A stretch of 64,000 nucleotides of DNA from Panorpa germanica (taxonomy: Eukaryota; Arthropoda; Insecta; Mecoptera; Panorpidae). Location: NCBI GenBank assembly GCA_963678705.1, contig OY783208.1:23772207-23836206 (forward strand), in the 5' to 3' direction. The translations under genes and the position numbers were made by a program. Positions 3,500-63,194 of this stretch are shown one piece after another; positions within the stretch are counted from its first letter, which is position 1, and each line of letters starts with the position of its first letter. The notes beneath the pieces are model-generated. The model saw only the letters and a list, made by a program, of their open reading frames with translations, had not been told where the DNA came from and ran no database searches.

Positions 3500-4195
3500 A
3501 AATAGTTACATGAAATTAAAGGATCTAATTATACAAAGAAATTCCAAATCTCCTATATGCTCTAATCCTTTTGAATCATTAATGGATATATATATGAACA
3601 CACAATTATTGTCAAAATCATTTAATGGTCCTATTAAATAATATATACAGATGCATTGGTCCATTGATTTAGAAAGAAATAAAGCAGGATTTGCTAAATA
3701 TGAACAAATACATTTATTATTTGATAAATTTAAATGAAATAACAAAGTTAGCTCTTATACTGGAGAACAATTAGCAATATTAAAAGCACTGGAAATTAAT
3801 GAAAATATCAACAATAATAAAATTATAATAATAACGGATTCTTTAAGTGTTTTAAAAAATTTAAATTCTAATGATAACAAATCAAATAATGATATTTTGA
3901 CACGCAAAATTAAGGGGGTGTATTTCAATTTAATAAATAAAAATAATACCATAAAATTAATGTGGATACCAGGACATTGTGGAATAAGAGGAAACGAAAT
4001 TGCGGATAAATTGGCAAAGGAATCAATAAATTTGGAAATTGAGATGAAAGTGAAATTACTTTTTAATATAATCAAAAAATGAAACTTCAATTTGAGAAAC
4101 CAAGATTTCATTAACAAAAGTCAGTTAAAAGGAAGAGATTATTATATGTTACATCCAAATTTAAGTAAGAAAAGAAAATTTAAGTAAATGCAACA
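3500..4195 (+). pseudogene. R2: non-LTR retrotransposon RNase H fragment
   Basis: Degenerate reading of an RNase H domain: AGFAKYEQ, then after a stop YTGEQLAILKALEINEN, IIITDSLSVL, and IKLMWIPGHCGIRGNEIADK, the last being the classic C-terminal RNase H motif of I/Jockey-like non-LTR elements. Stops in frame and loss of the downstream zinc-finger part show it is dead. Confidence 0.8.
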
Positions 4196-35892: not shown

Positions 35893-37203
35893 TGCGCTTA
35901 GACTAAAATTAGCTGTGATTCAAACCGAAATGGATTACATCTCTCCAAGTTATCAACCAAACTGTAAATATATTTAACTTTATTAATAATTTTGTGTATG
36001 TGTTGTTATTCTGTATATATTAAAATTAATCTTTAAATGTCTTTTAAGGGGGTTTTACATGATCCGATTTCGATTCCGACGAACAGTCCGATTATCGTAC
36101 GTGTAAACACTCAAAATATGACAGTGTAATCGCAAAGGAGTATGAGAAGACCATACTGTTCGATTCGATATTGTGCGAACTGTTTGAAATTACCGCCATT
36201 AAATCAACGACGCTAGTCAGAACTAGGACTGTTGATTCATGACTTGACTTGCACAATTTGACCAACGTAGTCAATACGTTTGTCACTGCACATGCAAAAT
36301 ACACGTGACGTCACAGCTGATTACAGCCGTAACATTATCTTTGACAACAACTGCTACAACACAAGACTCCATTATTTTTAATTACAATTGAAATAATGAC
36401 TGTAATAAGGCAGACAAAATATACTGATAAGACTAATAGCTTTAAATGAAATAATGTAAAAATTAATATGAATTTGATGATTTTAGTAGTGATGATTAGT
36501 TAATATGAAATAATGTAATGTAAGTGCTTCCACTAGCTGAAAATCTTAATGCGGCACTTAATCTTTCATTACGATTTATTCCCTCCTTGATGTTAGTGTC
36601 CTTTTTTGTATTGGAGGAGTCACAAGTCTTGATAATTCCAGATACAGCTCCTCATTTATTCTTAAAAAAGTTTTGAGTATAGAACAAACGCCATTAAACG
36701 CAGAAAAAAGCAGAACTGTCAAGACAAAAAGTTAACCTAAAAATTATTTTAAGAAATTTAGTCAGTCGCATGGTTTTAATCTAATTTCTTTCATTAAATT
36801 CACATGTGATAAAGATTCTCTTAAGACACCATGATTTCATCCATTTACTTCTTGACTTATTTAGCATCAAAGCTAAACCTAGTGCAATTAGAGAGTCGTC
36901 ATCCATATTTACACCGTACACTTAATGTCAAACACCAGGACTCTTTGACATCGCAACTCAGATCAACAAGACAGACATCTTATGTGCAATGTGAAACACA
37001 AACAAGTAATATTCTACTTTTCTTAAACAGACTATTAATCGGAGTCAGAACTGATCATGTAAAACCCTCTTTAGATAATTGGTCAACTGCTTCCATTCAC
37101 CTGTTTACCAAATTAAGCACCTTGCACGATTCATCTTTTCTTAATGCACTTATTCCGCCATCTTGAATTACCTATTCCAGTAACAGAATTTTGTTTTCCA
37201 TAG
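35893..37203. other. Orcokinin intron before the B exon, mostly unique
   Basis: No repeat partner in this window. A 111-codon open frame at 36831-37166 has no recognisable domain and ends before the acceptor at 37202-37203. Confidence 0.45.
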
Positions 37204-38498
37204 AACAACAATCTCCAATGGAAATCGACGTCATGGGAAATTCTAAAGTTACCCAGAAAGCAAAATTTCTGGATGCCAGTTATCCAACAGATGGGAGGAC
37301 AAATAGCGAGGAGAGGAAGGGTCCATCGGATGGGTTCAGAGCAAGTCTGCTAAGGAAATTGTACAGCGATAAGAACGGGAAAGATTTGGATGTTAATAAC
37401 TTCCTGCAAAATGTAGATGGCAGGAGAAGTGACAATTTGAACAGAAATTTGGTGAAGAACGAAAATTACTGGCGGAGAAATTTAGATAGCATTGGTGGGG
37501 GTAACTTAATTCGAAATTTAGATAGCATAGGAGGAGGTAATTTGATTCGAAATTTAGATAGCATTGGAGGAGGTAATTTGATCCGCAATTTAGATAGCAT
37601 AGGAGGAGGTAATTTGATTCGAAATTTAGATAGCATAGGAGGAGGTAATTTGATCCGCAATTTAGATGGCATTGGTGGAGGAGGCCACATACTTCGTAAT
37701 TTAGATAGCATAGGAGGAGGTCACATAATTCGAAATTTAGACAGCATTGGAGGAGGTAATTTGATCCGCAATTTAGATGGCATCGGAGGAGGGCACATCA
37801 TTCGAAACTTAGATGGCATTGGGGGAGGTAATTTAATTAGAAATTTAGACAGCATAGGAGGAGGTAATTTGATCCGTAATTTAGATGGCATCGGTGGAGG
37901 AGGCCATATAATTCGTAATTTAGATAGCATTGGAGGAGGTCACATAATTCGTAATTTAGACAGCATAGGAGGAGGTAATTTGATCCGTAATTTAGATGGC
38001 ATCGGTGGAGGAGGCCATATAATTCGTAATTTAGATAGCATTGGAGGAGGTAATTTGATCCGCAATTTAGACGGCATAGGAGGAGGGCACATCATTCGAA
38101 ATTTAGATAGCATTGGAGGAGGTAATTTGATCCGTAATTTAGACAGCATTGGAGGAGGTAATTTGATCCGTAATTTAGACAGCATTGGAGGAGGTAATTT
38201 GATCCGTAATTTAGACAGCATTGGAGGAGGTAATTTGATACGTAATGTCTACGACACAGAACCGACTTGGAGATTCGTTGATTCAATCGCAGGAGGTGGG
38301 CCACTTAGGAACTTGGATGGAATCGGAGAAGGAGGTCCACTTAGGAATTTGGATGGAATCGCAGGAGGAGGTCCACTTAGGAACTTAGATGGAATCGGAG
38401 GAGGAGGACCCCTTAAACGGGATTTGGCTGCAAATAGAAACTTAGATCCCATCGGAGGAGGCGGTCCTCTTCTTCGAAACTTACAAAGGAGTAGATGA
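37204..38498 (+). CDS. Orcokinin B terminal exon with 26-unit peptide array
   Basis: Acceptor ttttccatag|AA, stop TGA at 38496-38498. About 91 residues of propeptide precede a tandem array (37479-38243) of 21 units, mainly NLDSIGGGNLIR with variants NLDGIGGGHIIR and NLDGIGGGGHIIR. Then come a spacer (NVYDTEPTWR) and five diverged units ending in GGPLR-like tails, from FVDSIAGGGPLR to NLDPIGGGGPLLR. The NLDxIGGG core is the orcokinin B signature. Units are separated by single arginines, so maturation should use monobasic cleavage followed by carboxypeptidase trimming. Joined to exons 1 and 2 the precursor is 487 aa. The 36-bp DNA unit is highly homogeneous, as in a recently amplified coding minisatellite. 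Long open frames on the other strand here are shadows of the repeat. Confidence 0.93.
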
Positions 38499-47219: not shown

Positions 47220-47361
47220 CCTCATTGCTATATCTCTGTCAACATTTAGATATTTAATAAAATAGAAACGCCTAATAGCTATGCAACACTTTTTACGTCT
47301 ACTTCTATATGCATATATTTTATTACACAGACGCCAACATAAAAATGCTTTTATTTCACAG

Positions 47362-47659
47362 CGGGATGACATTTGGCGGCCACAAACGCAGTTTCGATGT
47401 TGGAGAAAATAACGAACATCAAAGAAACTTAGGAAAATATCTGTTTCAATTACCACTTGTAGATAATAATGATAAATATATTGACGCCATCGACAAAAAG
47501 AATTTCGACGAAATTGATCGTTCTGGATTTGACAGTTTCGTTAAAAAGAATTTCGACGAAATAGACCGAGCTGGTTTTCGTACATTTGTCAAGAAGAACG
47601 AGTACCTGCCATTTGCATTGAGTCGGTATTATTCTGACAATGCTGACAGATATGTTTAA
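47362..47659 (+). CDS. Orcokinin A terminal exon
   Basis: Acceptor ttatttcacag|C, stop TAA 47657-47659. It encodes the rest of [14 protein letters not shown] and [12 protein letters not shown], then a linker ending KYIDAIDKK. Two orcokinin A peptides follow, [14 protein letters not shown] and [14 protein letters not shown], each bounded by KK, and a C-terminal tail. The first matches the canonical arthropod orcokinin pattern [10 protein letters not shown]. With exons 1, 2 and 46132-46249 the precursor is 194 aa. No AATAAA is seen close downstream; the first seen is at about 48317. Only two A-type peptides are made, against 26 B-type units from the alternative exon. Confidence 0.93.
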
Positions 47660-51957: not shown

Positions 51958-52375
51958 AGGTGAAACGATACTTGGCCATTATTTCTACCGAAGAACCATG
52001 TTTTTTTATGTTTAAATCGTTTTATGTAAGTAACTATAAACGCGAATCAAAATCTAAAGCTGCAATTAGTTAGATGAATAACGTATCTACATTTTAAGCT
52101 TTCTTCCACTGACTTTTAATGAGTTGGAACCGCAAAAATAAGTTTGGAAAATGAATATTGATATATTTTATAGTTACATTCCACTTTTTATATGACTGGT
52201 AACATATCTAAGGGTTTGTCATAAATTTTCTTTATCAAACTTACGCTTAAGATTTAAAAATATATAGAGTATTCGTTAAATTAGAATTGAACTATAAAAT
52301 ATAGCAATATTCATTTTCAAAAGTTATTTTTGCGGTTCCAACTCATTAAAATACAGTGGAAGATACTTTCTAGCT
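51958..52375 (+). mobile_element. R6 MITE copy in mannosidase gene 1 intron 4
   Basis: Starts TGAAACGATACTTGGCCATT and continues with the R6 body (TAAACGCGAATCAAAATCTA), with the inverted half up to AACTCATTAAAAT. Confidence 0.75.
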
Positions 52376-53246: not shown

Positions 53247-53441
53247 CTGTCGCATTGTTCCATTGGTCCTATCCCACCATTTCTGCAGGAAGCTAATTTC
53301 GTTCCACACAAAAGTTAAGTTAGGATTCTTCTTCAGCTTCGTCACTATGTTGCTGATGATGATCTTCACCTTGGTGTGGAAATACTCTTCAAACGTTTCT
53401 GTCCAAGCAATGTCTGTATGCGAATGAGGCACCAGGTAAAC
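53247..53441 (-). CDS. Golgi alpha-mannosidase II-like gene 1, exon 4 (zinc-site exon)
   Basis: Acceptor cttctag|GTT and donor CGACAG|gtacga bound 65 codons in phase 0, reading VYLVPHSHTDIAW, TFEEYF and TFVWNEISFLQKWW. PHSHxD holds the first two zinc ligands of GH38 and both are intact here. The usual NDPGW is TDIAW. The 65-codon exon has exactly the same length and borders as its counterpart in the downstream paralogue (62225-62419). Confidence 0.9.
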
Positions 53442-53506: not shown

Positions 53507-53599
53507 CTGCGTTGATACAGTTTTCTCGCACAACTCCTGCAGCTTGTGGCGCTTCTCGAGGTAGGAGTTCCAAACAATAGACTCCGAGTTATTTTCATT
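53507..53599 (-). CDS. Golgi alpha-mannosidase II-like gene 1, exon 3
   Basis: Reads 31 codons (NENNSESIVWNSYLEKRHK to CEKTVSTQ) between acceptor cttttaag and donor CAG|gtagct, phase 0 at both ends. It occupies the stem-to-catalytic linker just before VYLVPHSH, where Golgi mannosidases carry a variable GVW-containing segment. It is identified by phase, splice sites and position more than by similarity. Confidence 0.7.
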
Positions 53600-53809: not shown

Positions 53810-53951
53810 CTTAAAATTTAGGCGAGCATATTGAGTGACAGTATATATGTTTGCTGCAGATGTAGAAACTTGAGGACACAGCTGAAAACTTCGAGTAGTT
53901 CTATTTAATGCCGTCTCATTGGTGTCGTTTATGTCGCTAGTATCAAGAGAC
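53810..53951 (-). CDS. Golgi alpha-mannosidase II-like gene 1, exon 2 (stem)
   Basis: Acceptor catttgcag|G and donor TTTAAG|gttaga bound 142 nt. With the AG carried from exon 1 this gives 48 codons: R SLDTSDINDTNETALNRT, then CPQVSTSAANIYTVTQYARL and NFK. Two or more N-glycosylation sequons (NDT, NET, NRT) and the Cys-x-x-Val ... LNF pattern resemble the lumenal stem of Golgi mannosidase II just before the catalytic domain. Confidence 0.75.
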
Positions 53952-55634: not shown

Positions 55635-55975
55635 ATATTGATAAAGTTGATTACAAAAACCGTATATGTTAGGAGATATTAACAATTAAAAAAGTCATTT
55701 TGTCTCTTTAATTATTAAAGGGATTCAACGTTGTACACATTCCAAATGCATGTGACATGACAATCCTTGTGTAAGGTTACCAACTTTACAGCTCATAAAT
55801 CTCTGCTATATGTATTTATATATCAAAATATCAAATATTATTTACAGCTATTTCAAGGAACAATAAAATTTCAATATTATGTCTGCCGTAACAGGGTTAA
55901 ATAAAATAAAAAGTTATTATTCTAACAGATACAAAACATTACTACAGCACTGACCTATCCCACTACATGTTGATC
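55635..55975 (-). repeat. R3 copy
   Basis: Reverse R3, right half, just downstream (gene-wise) of mannosidase gene 1 exon 1. Confidence 0.8.
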
Positions 55976-58242: not shown

Positions 58243-58745
58243 CTTGTCTTAATTTCTATAAAAGTGTACTACATATTGATAAAGTTGGTTACTAGAACTC
58301 TTTATATGTTAAGAGATATTAACAAATAAAAAAGTCATTTTGTCTCTTTAATTATTAAAGGGATTCAACGTTGTACACATTCCAAATGCATGTGACCTCA
58401 CAACCGCTGCCAACCTTACAGCTCATAAATCTCTGCTATATGTATTTATATATCAAAATATCAAATATAATTATTTACAGCTATTTCAAGGAACAATCAA
58501 ATTTCAATATTACGTCTGCCTTAGCAGGGTTAAATAAAATAAAAACTTATTATTCTTTGACTTGACTTGATTATTTCGACTACCAACAGCTACAAAATAT
58601 TACCACAGCACTGACCTACTCAACAAATAACGGGCCGACATTTCTGGCGCTAAAACTACAATTCAAATTTTTAATTGCTATATCTCCGTCAACATTTAGA
58701 TATTTCATAAAATAGACACGCTAATACACATTTATTAACATCAGG
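58243..58745 (-). repeat. R3 copy, with small fragment 59205-59275
   Basis: Near full-length reverse R3 directly abutting an R5 copy. A 70-bp R3 end (CTATATCTCCGTCAAC ...) recurs at 59205-59275 next to gene 2's 3' end. Confidence 0.8.
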
Positions 58746-59318: not shown

Positions 59319-62069
59319 TTATTTTTTGAATATGATTTTAACAGTTTGAATATCCATTGGCCCAAGCTTCATCTTCTTCATGCTCGACATGGGGCCCTTG
59401 GGGTGGAGCCCTGTGAGTGACGTGAATTGCATTTCCTCCACGTCAGCCACTTTAAACAACGGCGCAGCAGAGAATCCAACCCTGTGAGTACAGTTCTGGG
59501 GAACCTCTTTACCGATGGAACAACTGTATCCCTGTCGATGCAAGATAAGAAGCGCTTCATTCGAAGGGGACTCCTCCGAGGTCGAACTCGTGCGTGACCG
59601 GAGATTCACGAGGTGTACGTCACATGGGAAGGGATTCGTCAGCAACTTCACGTTCTTCACAACAGTCTGGTCGTGCTGATTAACAAAGAAGAAGATCGTT
59701 ACAGGATAGTTCAAGGAGTTGCCGAGGTGTTGCACGAAGTTGCTCGGAAGACGGTAGAACTTGTCCACGTCGGGGAGCTTCGGCTTGCGTTTGATGCCCC
59801 CCGCGATGGACTCCAGCACCAACGAGAACTTAAACGTCGTGAGTTTGTTGTCCATGACTCCCTCCCCGAGCCCTTTGTTGTCATCGTTCAGAGTATTCCT
59901 GTCCAGCATGACCTCGAGCCGACCCTGTTCCAGGCTGGATGCACCCAGAGCGTGGCCTGTCAATAGCGTCAGGCGATTTTCCGCGTCCTGCAGGAACGCC
60001 ATGCTCGTCACAGGATAATAATTCCCCTCGATCCCGATCCCCGATACCGTCTTCCTCTTTTGGAAGGAAAACCCATTGGAGTCCGTGTAGAACACAGGAG
60101 GTTTTCCATTCTTAATGTTGGTTTCCAGGCGCATGAACATCTCCGCGTTGTGGACGGCCAGTCTCGAGGTCACCTCCAGATAAATGGCGTGTGAGAGGGA
60201 GCTGTTCTCCGTGTGGTAGATGCGAGCCGTGTGTTTGAAGTCCCCGCCCAGGAAGACAGTAACTTCGCTGCTGATCCCGCCAGAGCTTACCACGATCTGT
60301 GGATGCATGGAGAACTCCTTCAGGATGCTCAACTCCGGGTGTGTTTCGTTGGCTGGTTTGAACACGTACGCCCCTGATTCCAAGCTGTGGTACGCTGCAA
60401 ACCACTGGTTGATCTTAACCTCCTTCTTCGTCACATTCTTCCTGATCGTGTTCAACATTCCGGAAGTGCCATCGAACATGAGTTGCATGAACGCGTTTTG
60501 CAGGCGGATGTCGCCAACAGGATTCCGTTTAACTTTAAATACCTTCGTCATCTGTTGGCAACTTATGCAGTAGGTTTCTGCGAGGTTCTCTGCTTTGACT
60601 TCCGGGACTTGATTCACGAAGAATATCGACAGACTGAGCGGAGGCAACGCTGCTATGAATATTACTTCAAACTCTCCTTCCACTAGCAAGAGAGTATTCT
60701 CTAGAGATCCCGTCAATTTCCAAATGGGATTTATTTGGATTTGCAATTCATTGTTCTTTGCGTCAGTCACCTGGACTTTCGTTGTATTTGTCCTGATCCT
60801 GACTACCTCACTCCTGCTGTGAGGCAAAGAGTTGAAGAGGATTATCTTCCTGTTTAAGATTTTCTCTTTCTTTGGAAGTTGGTCGAAAGCAGGACGATCA
60901 GTTTCAGCCTGGATTATTTCGTGGGCGTCCATCTTGTTCTTCGGCGACGATATTAACGACTCGATGGTGTACTGCTGGATCTTCAAGGTGTGTTGAATGC
61001 CCTTCAGCAACGACTTCGCATAGTCCTCCACAACTACCGCCTTGGACGTTCCAGTTATTCCTTCATTGTGCTGGAACAAAGCCAGGTTCCGCCTAGCGAC
61101 GGTTAGCAATTTGTACTTCTCCTCCAGGGCTGCCACAGAGATGTTGTCCTCCTTTTGGCGCGCTTTGTTGATGGTCAACGTGAACAACATCTCCGCGTTC
61201 CTCAAGTTGTGCTCTAATTCCCGCCCTAGAATCTTCATGAAGGGTCTCGTCGTGTAGTATCCCGTCCAGTAATCCGGCCTCCCATTAGTGAACACCTCTC
61301 CGTACGGTAGGAAGTCACCAGACATGGTCGGGTAGTTGTCATAGCGCTGGAAGATCTCGTTGAAGTATTCTTTAGGCGTTCCAAACGCAATCTTCGTCTG
61401 ATAGACGTCAAAATGTTTGTTGATGTAGTCGATAATCGTCTTGTAGTTCGAGAATTGATGGTCCAGTTGTTCCTCCAGGTTGTATTTGAAATCACCGCCC
61501 AAAAATATCATCAAAACCTTGTGAGTGACAAGGGATCCAGCCTTATGAAACTGCTCCAGCAGAATTTCAGCCTTTCTTTTGACGTTCTCGCTGGTAACTA
61601 CCTGTTTCTTGTGGAAGTCATAGTCCTTGCAGATGTCGCGGTTAGGTCCGCAAGAATTGATGGTGTAGAGGTCGAACGGCATGTGATGGGTTAGTAGGCT
61701 CCCAGGCTGCAGTGCGTCTACCTTCGCTCTAGAACGACGTCGCTCGTTCATAGATTCCCAACCTGGTGTCCAGTAGAAATCAGAAATCATGGAGAAGGCG
61801 AACCAGCGCTTCCAGGCGTAGTGGACTCTTTGGATGATGTTTGCCTTTAGATTGGAGCGAGATAGAAGATAGGGGAGGGTCGCCCCGTGACCGTAGACGT
61901 TGATGGACCATCCATATTCGGGCGTGGTGTTTAGGTTCTCGCGAAGCCATTGGTGGCCTTCGATTAGTTGATCCAGCAGCGCGTACAAATGCGTGGTGGC
62001 TTCATCCGGCATGACCCAGCCCCCAGTTGTTATCTCCAGGCGTTCCGTCTTGATGAGTTCTTGGAAATC
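59319..62069 (-). CDS. Golgi alpha-mannosidase II paralogue (gene 2), last exon: predicted pseudoenzyme
   Basis: One 2751-nt exon (acceptor tttccag|GAT, stop TAA 59321-59319) encodes 916 residues, collinear with exon 5 of gene 1 from DFQELIK and TGGWVMPDEA to the C-terminus. The fold-defining motifs are kept: IQRVHYAWKRW, PFDLY, LGGDF, ARRNLALFQH, EGITGTSK. Catalytic residues are not. The nucleophile/zinc ligand Asp of GWSID is Asn (GWSINVYGHGATLPY), and the zinc ligand His of QHHD is Asn (FQHNEG), with the following Asp changed to Glu. The long frame is free of stops, so purifying selection on a non-hydrolytic role, or a young loss, are both possible. It is a tandem duplicate of the 49-56 kb gene, same strand. 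A minus-strand AATAAA lies at 59146-59141. Confidence 0.92.
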   Translation of the reverse strand, partial: DFQELIKTERLEITTGGWVMPDEATTHLYALLDQLIEGHQWLRENLNTTPEYGWSINVYGHGATLPYLLSRSNLKANIIQRVHYAWKRWFAFSMISDFYWTPGWESMNERRRSRAKVDALQPGSLLTHHMPFDLYTINSCGPNRDICKDYDFHKKQVVTSENVKRKAEILLEQFHKAGSLVTHKVLMIFLGGDFKYNLEEQLDHQFSNYKTIIDYINKHFDVYQTKIAFGTPKEYFNEIFQRYDNYPTMSGDFLPYGEVFTNGRPDYWTGYYTTRPFMKILGRELEHNLRNAEMLFTLTINKARQKEDNISVAALEEKYKLLTVARRNLALFQHNEGITGTSKAVVVEDYAKSLLKGIQHTLKIQQYTIESLISSPKNKMDAHEIIQAETDRPAFDQLPKKEKILNRKIILFNSLPHSRSEVVRIRTNTTKVQVTDAKNNELQIQINPIWKLTGSLENTLLLVEGEFEVIFIAALPPLSLSIFFVNQVPEVKAENLAETYCISCQQMTKVFKVKRNPVGDIRLQNAFMQLMFDGTSGMLNTIRKNVTKKEVKINQWFAAYHSLESGAYVFKPANETHPELSILKEFSMHPQIVVSSGGISSEVTVFLGGDFKHTARIYHTENSSLSHAIYLEVTSRLAVHNAEMFMRLETNIKNGKPPVFYTDSNGFSFQKRKTVSGIGIEGNYYPVTSMAFLQDAENRLTLLTGHALGASSLEQGRLEVMLDRNTLNDDNKGLGEGVMDNKLTTFKFSLVLESIAGGIKRKPKLPDVDKFYRLPSNFVQHLGNSLNYPVTIFFFVNQHDQTVVKNVKLLTNPFPCDVHLVNLRSRTSSTSEESPSNEALLILHRQGYSCSIGKEVPQNCTHRVGFSAAPLFKVADVEEMQFTSLTGLHPKGPMSSMKKMKLGPMDIQTVKIIFKK

Positions 62070-62224
62070 CTGGAAACAGGAAACAGATGTCTATGACACT
62101 AAAACATAACCTACAATGTGAGACTTTTTAGCCAGCCTCCTGAACGTTAAAATAAAGGCCCCCGAAAAAGTGCAACTATGTTACTTTTATTTCGAGGTCA
62201 AATACTTGTTGATTGCGAGCTTAC

Positions 62225-62419
62225 CCTTTTGGCGGCGCTGCTGGCCGTCTTCCACCATTTATGAAGGAACGCCATTTCGTTCCAAACAAAAGTCAATGTC
62301 TTATATAGCTTCATCTTCTTGATCATTACTTCGATGACCTGTTTAGTGGTATCGAAAAAGTACTGCTTGAAGGTTCGCAGCCATCCTGCTCTGTTGTGTG
62401 AATGTGGAACTAAATACAC
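62225..62419 (-). CDS. Golgi alpha-mannosidase II paralogue (gene 2), zinc-site exon
   Basis: Acceptor atccgcag|GTG and donor AAAAGG|gtaagc bound 65 codons, phase 0, the same size and borders as the matching exon of gene 1. It reads VYLVPHSHNRAGW, then TLTFVWNEMAFLHKWW. In GH38 the HND motif supplies two zinc ligands; here the Asp is Arg (HNR), which would place a positive charge in the metal site. Earlier exons (membrane anchor, stem) are not found in 62420-64000 and must lie beyond the window, so the gene is partial here. Confidence 0.9.
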
Positions 62420-62559: not shown

Positions 62560-62955
62560 GTGAAAAATCGCGGAATATAGATGGCGATACTATACAGCAG
62601 GTTAAATATTATCAAAAAAAACATGTTTTTTTTATGTTTAAATCGTTTTATGTAAGTAACTATAAACGCGAATCAAAATCTAAAGCTGCAATTAGTTAGA
62701 TGAATAACGTATTTACATTTTAAGCTTTCTTCCACTGACTTTTCACTGATTTTGATATGACTGGGATATTATCGAATACTCTATATATTTTTAAGTCTTA
62801 AGGGTAAGTTTGAGAACCGTAATAAGGGTTATAAAATTTAAGACAAACCCTTAGAAATGTTACCAGTCATATAAAAATTGGAATTGAATTAGAAAATATA
62901 GCAATATTCATTTACAAAACTTATTTTTGCGGTTCCAACTCATTAAAATTGTTTA
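62560..62955 (+). mobile_element. R6 MITE copy upstream of mannosidase gene 2 zinc-site exon
   Basis: R6 body with its rearranged inverted half, in the intron before 62225-62419. Confidence 0.75.
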
Positions 62956-63194
62956 AAGTTATGCCAGGAATTTAAAAAAAATAAAAATAATTAAAATAAC
63001 GTTTACAAATAAAATAAATATTTCAAATAACTGCAGTTTAACCCCGCGATTCATTATACAGGAGCTAAATAGTGCGCGGTTGGAGCCCCCAATAATTAGG
63101 GCCCTCAGAAAGGTCTTAAGGATGTATGAGTGAGTGCGTGGTGTAATAGTGAATTTTGATGGGTGGGATACGCTTGAGCATTTGCGAGGTGAAG

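Follow-up and report, generated by a model that had tools for sequence, protein, structure and literature searches.

Can a glycosidase gene that has lost its catalytic metal site still be kept for its product? This question is raised by a stretch of 64,000 nucleotides from Panorpa germanica (assembly GCA_963678705.1, contig OY783208.1, positions 23,772,207 to 23,836,206 of the forward strand; termed the window here, with all coordinates counted from its first nucleotide), which carries two neighbouring genes of glycoside hydrolase family 38 (GH38). Gene 1 has intact catalytic residues and gene 2 has lost most of its zinc site. Judged from its sequence, gene 2 is likely to be a maintained GH38 pseudoenzyme that arose as an old tandem duplicate of an alpha-mannosidase resembling Golgi mannosidase II (GMII). 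A first-pass annotation of the window had proposed a conserved, non-catalytic GH38 duplicate beside an intact copy, and the zinc-site losses, an omega (dN/dS) of about 0.05 and the presence of all six catalytic residues in gene 1 agree with this proposal. Gene 2 was delimited as follows.

62225 to 62419, minus strand: gene 2 exon B, 195 nt, 65 codons, in which the GH38 N-terminal domain begins (VYLVPHSHNRAGW); placed by splice borders and frame, Pfam PF01074 at E 1.5e-12
62070 to 62224, minus strand: gene 2 intron, 155 nt, GT...AG, phase 0
59319 to 62069, minus strand: gene 2 exon C, 2751 nt including TAA, 916 codons, with the GH38 N-terminal, middle and C-terminal domains

An open GH38 gene beside an intact copy

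Exons B and C of gene 2 together hold 981 stop-free codons (65 + 916) between GT/AG borders, which is probably less than the whole of the gene. Its neighbour is built in the same way.

53247 to 53441, minus strand: gene 1 exon B, 195 nt, 65 codons, with an HTD motif; the adjoining copy with intact catalytic residues
49154 to 51916, minus strand: gene 1 exon C, 2763 nt, 920 codons and TGA

The B exons of gene 2 and gene 1 measure 195/195 nt and their C exons 2751/2763 nt, with the same phase 0, so that the open frame of 981 residues and the splice borders and exon lengths matching those of the neighbour, as reported by the first-pass annotation, were recovered with exact coordinates. The Pfam domains PF01074, PF09261 and PF07748 all pass their cut-offs in exon C of gene 2 and of gene 1, and exon B of both genes also matches the GH38 N-terminal domain. 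Gene 2 thus contains the three domains whose joint presence was taken to define membership of GH38 by descent. In a search of the PDB the top match of exon C of both genes was fly GMII, with E 7.7e-109 for gene 2; since the GH38 domains lie above their cut-offs and the structural match has this E value, the homology of gene 2 is not a matter of chance. Because all three domains pass, a domain-based annotation would label gene 2 an alpha-mannosidase.

Neither mannosidase gene matched an NCBIfam model at E 0.01. A tblastn search of the window with both proteins gave no third GH38 copy, the remaining hits being at chance level (E 5 or worse), and no relatives were found in virus, prokaryote or plasmid sequence collections. 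AlphaFold2, run with exon C of gene 2 and a single further alignment row, that of gene 1, reached a mean pLDDT of 27.3 and gave no usable model.

Loss of the zinc site and the nucleophile

Residues were called from a three-way alignment of gene 1, gene 2 and fly GMII and carry fly GMII numbering; papers given by PMC number are cited from excerpts of their text. Asp204 is described as the nucleophile and Asp341 as the acid/base of GMII, and Trp95, Arg228, Tyr269 and Tyr727 are named as residues of its site (PMC13204073). A zinc site of the form H/D/D/H is present in a Streptococcus enzyme (PMC2815779) and is termed invariant in a paper on a fission yeast enzyme (PMC7609781). Gene 2 keeps a single one of these four ligands, His90, the others being replaced (D92R, D204N and H471N), whereas gene 1 keeps all four. 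The alignment therefore bears out the earlier reading of the motifs, in which HND had become HNR, GWSID had become GWSIN and QHHD had become QHNE, with three of four zinc ligands lost. Relative to fly and gene 1, gene 2 also carries D472E and F206Y. As to the catalytic pair, the nucleophile Asp204 is an asparagine in gene 2 and the acid/base Asp341 is retained. The codons concerned are the following.

62390 to 62392, minus strand: AGA, Arg in place of zinc ligand Asp92
61899 to 61901, minus strand: AAC, Asn at the position of Asp204, nucleophile and zinc ligand
61065 to 61067, minus strand: AAT, Asn in place of zinc ligand His471
61062 to 61064, minus strand: GAA, Glu at the position of the substrate-binding Asp472
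61491 to 61493, minus strand: GAT, Asp retained at the position of the acid/base Asp341

Further residues of the pocket persist in gene 2, namely Arg228, Tyr269, Trp95, Tyr727 and Trp415, the last of which we take to be a subsite residue of fly GMII. Arg228 and Tyr269 are the arginine of IQRVHY and the tyrosine of PFxxY, whose survival had been claimed from the motifs and is upheld by the alignment. Asp340 is gone from both genes (Ser in gene 1, Gly in gene 2), and so is Arg343 of the holding site (Ser in gene 1, Lys in gene 2). All seven cysteines of gene 2 pair with cysteines in gene 1. In the stretch covered by exon B, the jack bean and bovine enzymes likewise have Asp where gene 2 has Arg92, and they keep an HDD motif. 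Gene 1 retains His90, Asp92, Asp204, Asp341, His471 and Asp472, and hence six of six catalytic residues. It has oddities of its own: HTD in place of HND at the zinc motif, the serine at Asp340, and a lack of the residues that anchor N-acetylglucosamine (GlcNAc).

Since the nucleophile is an asparagine and three of the four zinc ligands are gone, gene 2 is predicted to be unable to hydrolyse mannosides by the retaining mechanism; from this chemistry it is near certain that it lacks the mannosidase activity of GH38.

Losses around the active site concentrate on catalytic residues

Over the whole alignment, fly and gene 1 agree at 277 positions, of which 208 are conserved in gene 2; fly and gene 2 agree at 264, of which gene 1 also conserves 208. 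Within five residues of the zinc ligands and the acid, 24 positions are common to fly and gene 1; gene 2 has lost five of the eight that are catalytic or belong to the -1 subsite and kept all the remaining 16 (Fisher p 0.0013). When the span is narrowed to three residues, the losses are 5/8 against 0/13 (p 0.0028), and at eight residues they are 5/8 against 4/30 (p 0.010). The catalytic set (90, 92, 95, 204, 206, 341, 471 and 472) was picked from the literature, and the spans were chosen by us. As aligned here, the losses of gene 2 near the active site fall on the catalytic positions. Four positions, N91, G94, H208 and G473, are retained in gene 2 and lost in gene 1. Of the five changes in the pocket itself, four roughly preserve the size or shape of the side chain (D204N, F206Y, H471N and D472E), and D92R is radical.

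Age and selective constraint

Gene 2 and gene 1 are identical at 480 of 961 positions (49.9%), and their synonymous sites are saturated. The NG86 method yielded no synonymous divergence (dS) for the pair, and a GY94 likelihood fit was used instead, which is still saturated with a dS of about 8. In this fit omega is about 0.05; values of 0.02 and 0.08 fall inside and 0.1 falls outside the cut of 3.84 on twice the log-likelihood difference (2 delta lnL), and a value of 1 for omega is rejected, at a 2 delta lnL of 413. Because the pairwise omega mixes the branches of gene 1 and gene 2, fly was used as an outgroup to split them. Over 751 positions, 69 changes are found in gene 2 only and 56 in gene 1 only (p 0.28), and with branch lengths of 0.49 (gene 2) and 0.43 (gene 1) the amino-acid rate of gene 2 is not detectably faster. 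By domain, the changes confined to gene 2 and to gene 1 number 33 vs 20 in the N domain, which is not significant (p 0.098), 6 vs 9 in the middle domain and 30 vs 27 in the C domain. The GC content at third codon positions reaches 65.9% for gene 2 and 64.5% for gene 1, and 2-kb bins outside the two C exons have 27-37% GC.

Across the 18 sites of its six catalytic codons, gene 2 has undergone six or more nucleotide changes, three of which are required by D92R alone. Had the gene drifted since the first loss, then even at the divergence that favours this most, five further changes and 2943 nt free of stops would occur together with a probability no higher than 1.1e-5; the same calculation gives 6.8e-4 when three changes are counted. 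This argument for constraint after the loss concerns one genome and is not a substitute for orthologues. The values point to a gene whose remainder was constrained while its site changed, or to selection that drove the site changes, and either course would point to a working product. Gene 2 combines two marks by which a maintained pseudoenzyme is recognized: catalytic residues are gone from an enzyme fold, and purifying selection is seen over the long term, in this one genome. The history that we envisage is that a GMII-like alpha-mannosidase was duplicated in tandem and that gene 2 subsequently lost the zinc site and the nucleophile, with purifying selection presumably continuing to act on the fold.

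Placement of the pair among GH38 enzymes

Since neither gene has Tyr267, Pro298 or Trp299, the two appear as a divergent GMII-like pair and not as canonical Golgi mannosidase II, the name under which the locus had initially been annotated and which we do not retain. These three residues form the GlcNAc anchor site of GMII and are missing from lysosomal mannosidase (PMC13204073); position 267 is Glu in gene 1 and Asp in gene 2, and 298 and 299 are gapped in both.

Drosophila GMII (PDB 1hty and 1qwn) resembles gene 2 in its three GH38 domains and in His90, Asp341, Arg228, Tyr269, Trp95 and Tyr727, and 264 of 751 ungapped positions are identical between them. It differs in that gene 2 replaces D92, D204, H471, D472 and F206, in addition to the missing anchor. 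The lysosomal-type mannosidases (bovine, 1o7d; jack bean, 6b9o and 6b9p) share the GH38 fold by sequence and, like the pair, have no GMII anchor residues; they are more distant from gene 2, the best match reaching 161 bits (jack bean) as opposed to 368 for fly GMII, and they differ from it in the HDD motif that they keep in the exon B region. A third group consists of the insect GH38 enzymes SfManIII and Drosophila ManIIb, which act without prior addition of GlcNAc (PMC11697051). Such independence of GlcNAc would fit the absent anchor residues of gene 1, a likeness drawn by description; these insect enzymes of the Golgi mannosidase III/ManIIb type are active and Co(II)-dependent, which gene 2 is not expected to be.

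Precedents for inactive duplicates

Pseudoenzymes are common enough in Drosophila to fill a list of 313 genes (PMC12869072), and most testis-specific paralogues of carbohydrate metabolism in this fly are predicted to be inactive (PMC11836677); the word 'mannosidase' is absent from the texts of both papers. Among the open-licence papers listed, judged by titles and the starts of abstracts, none describes an inactive GH38 or mannosidase pseudoenzyme, the one that touches on both mannosidases and pseudoenzymes being concerned with plant glycoengineering; an earlier report elsewhere is possible. Two cases from other families come close. The inactive cluster of Drosophila sperm leucyl aminopeptidases (S-LAPs) consists, like gene 2, of duplicated insect metalloenzymes that lost metal and catalytic residues and were kept as proteins (PMC3078892); the family is unrelated, and the expression and abundance of the S-LAPs are established, whereas gene 2 is read from the genome. 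The GH28 polygalacturonase pseudoenzymes of beetles are likewise inactive glycoside hydrolase duplicates kept alongside active ones; they too belong to an unrelated family and, unlike gene 2, were tested biochemically and showed no substrate binding (PMC8213348). If the Panorpa pair is shared across species, it would offer a natural test of non-catalytic uses of the fold that trims N-glycans, and an active/inactive pair in which to follow how a metal-dependent glycosidase turns into a binder or regulator.

Possible roles of a maintained gene 2

Provided that gene 2 is a maintained pseudoenzyme, our leading guess at its role is lectin-like recognition of mannose or N-glycans in the secretory pathway, to which we give somewhat less than an even chance. 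Arg92 would place a positive charge near the former place of the zinc and could stand in for part of its charge. With this arginine and the nearly size-preserving changes, the pocket could remain folded and charge-balanced without a metal, so that binding of mannose or an N-glycan would be possible. That a dead GH38 site can still hold a glycan follows from the D204A fly enzyme, which was used for the structure of a complex with intact substrate (PMC13204073). The full proposal, in which gene 2 would be a metal-free glycan binder with arginine in place of the catalytic zinc and near-isosteric changes holding the mannose pocket beside an active sister, is put forward tentatively and is on balance doubtful.

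The strongest competitor is compatible with maintenance and differs in the role. Gene 2 may be a partner, stabiliser or regulator of gene 1, or else a protein that is structural or secreted in abundance, and not a glycan binder. We rate this explanation as a serious one that falls a little short of even; when a maintained pseudoenzyme is taken as given, the partner, regulator and structural roles together have about an even chance. The fold is kept outside the site, with the near-equal counts in the C (30 vs 27) and middle (6 vs 9) domains, a structural role has been proposed for the inactive sperm aminopeptidases (PMC3078892), and the polygalacturonase pseudoenzymes of beetles matter for digestion although they do not bind substrate (PMC8213348). 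The flanks of the active site, kept at 16 of 16 positions, argue the other way, as a purely structural role would not need them.

Points against maintenance and the less probable readings

Several observations weigh against a maintained pseudoenzyme. The chief weakness lies at the 5′ end, where two likely exons of gene 1 have no counterpart found in gene 2.

53507 to 53599, minus strand: likely exon A of gene 1, 31 codons in the stem region, weakly aligned to fly GMII; no gene 2 counterpart found
53810 to 53951, minus strand: likely exon A0 of gene 1, 142 nt in the stem region, splice borders set by eye; no gene 2 counterpart found

In gene 1, the final nine residues of exon A0 lie inside the fly GMII alignment, and translated exons A0 and A lengthen this alignment, weakly, to residue 47. 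In the 1.58 kb that lie upstream of gene 2 before the window ends, no counterpart of either exon was found. A peptide search there did no better than shuffles (163/200 and 119/200 of which equalled or exceeded the scores of the two exons), and a donor scan gave a weak negative, its narrow pattern having also missed the likely donor of gene 1 exon A. As for an N-terminal membrane anchor that would place the product in the Golgi, none was identified in the two stem-like exons of gene 1, and the 1.58 kb of gene 2 provided no 5′ exons in which to seek one. A complete product of gene 2 is hence unproven. On the side of the statistics, the pairwise omega is an average over both branches at a saturated dS, the loss of at least three of four metal ligands reaches only p 0.049 when set against the overall loss rate, and the active-site spans show no excess of changes in gene 2 (5 in gene 2 only, 6 in gene 1 only). 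Two further points bear on the lectin-like guess in particular: the zinc itself touches the sugar in GMII (PMC13204073), and the beetle pseudoenzymes no longer bind their substrate (PMC8213348).

A short open reading frame upstream of gene 2 (62962-63054, minus strand; MNRGVKLQLFEIFILFVNVILIIFIFFKFLA) is signal-anchor-like; the DNA is very AT-rich, the frame may be due to chance, and a link to exon B is unproven.

The unfound exons would suit a gene 2 that was active for long, lost catalysis lately and has begun to decay, its 5′ exons perhaps already gone. The slight, non-significant excess of changes in its N domain would also suit such a history, as would the fact that the measured constraint is an average over the whole gene 2 branch. 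Recent death nevertheless appears improbable, since the catalytic codons have gathered their six or more changes with no stop elsewhere, at the joint probabilities given above, and the flanks of the active site are fully retained.

Lower still do we place a change of chemistry, by which gene 2 would still be an enzyme with another metal, nucleophile or reaction. Asp341, Arg228, Tyr269 and the glutamate at 472 leave a pocket that is not chemically empty, but position 204 offers no nucleophile, an arginine sits in the metal site, and the H/D/D/H site extends to Streptococcus (PMC2815779) and is described as invariant in the paper on fission yeast (PMC7609781); this reading is very improbable. 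That gene 2 is an artefact of assembly or sequencing, or gene 1 seen again from another haplotype, has next to no probability and was rejected in view of the 50% identity to gene 1, the open frame of 981 codons and several multi-nucleotide codon differences at the site, no support for it having been found in the single assembly.

Other features of the window

Scans of the window with Rfam at gathering scores and for tRNAs gave no match. On the plus strand, 37167-38498 and 47279-47659 are peptide-repeat exons with many repeats of the type NLDSIGGGNLIR; neither matched a Pfam family, and they are presumably orcokinin-like neuropeptide exons. An RNase H-like open reading frame at 3738-4082 on the plus strand (PF00075, E 3.3e-12) is probably the remnant of a retrotransposon. 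A stretch of 117 nt occurs twice with 99% identity, in the intron between exons B and C of gene 1 (52001-52117) and just upstream of gene 2 exon B (62627-62743), and probably represents a recent mobile element. In the interval that separates the mannosidase genes, 55663-55923 and 58303-58556 share pieces of 63-101 nt in the same order, with 94-97% identity and about 2.63 kb apart.

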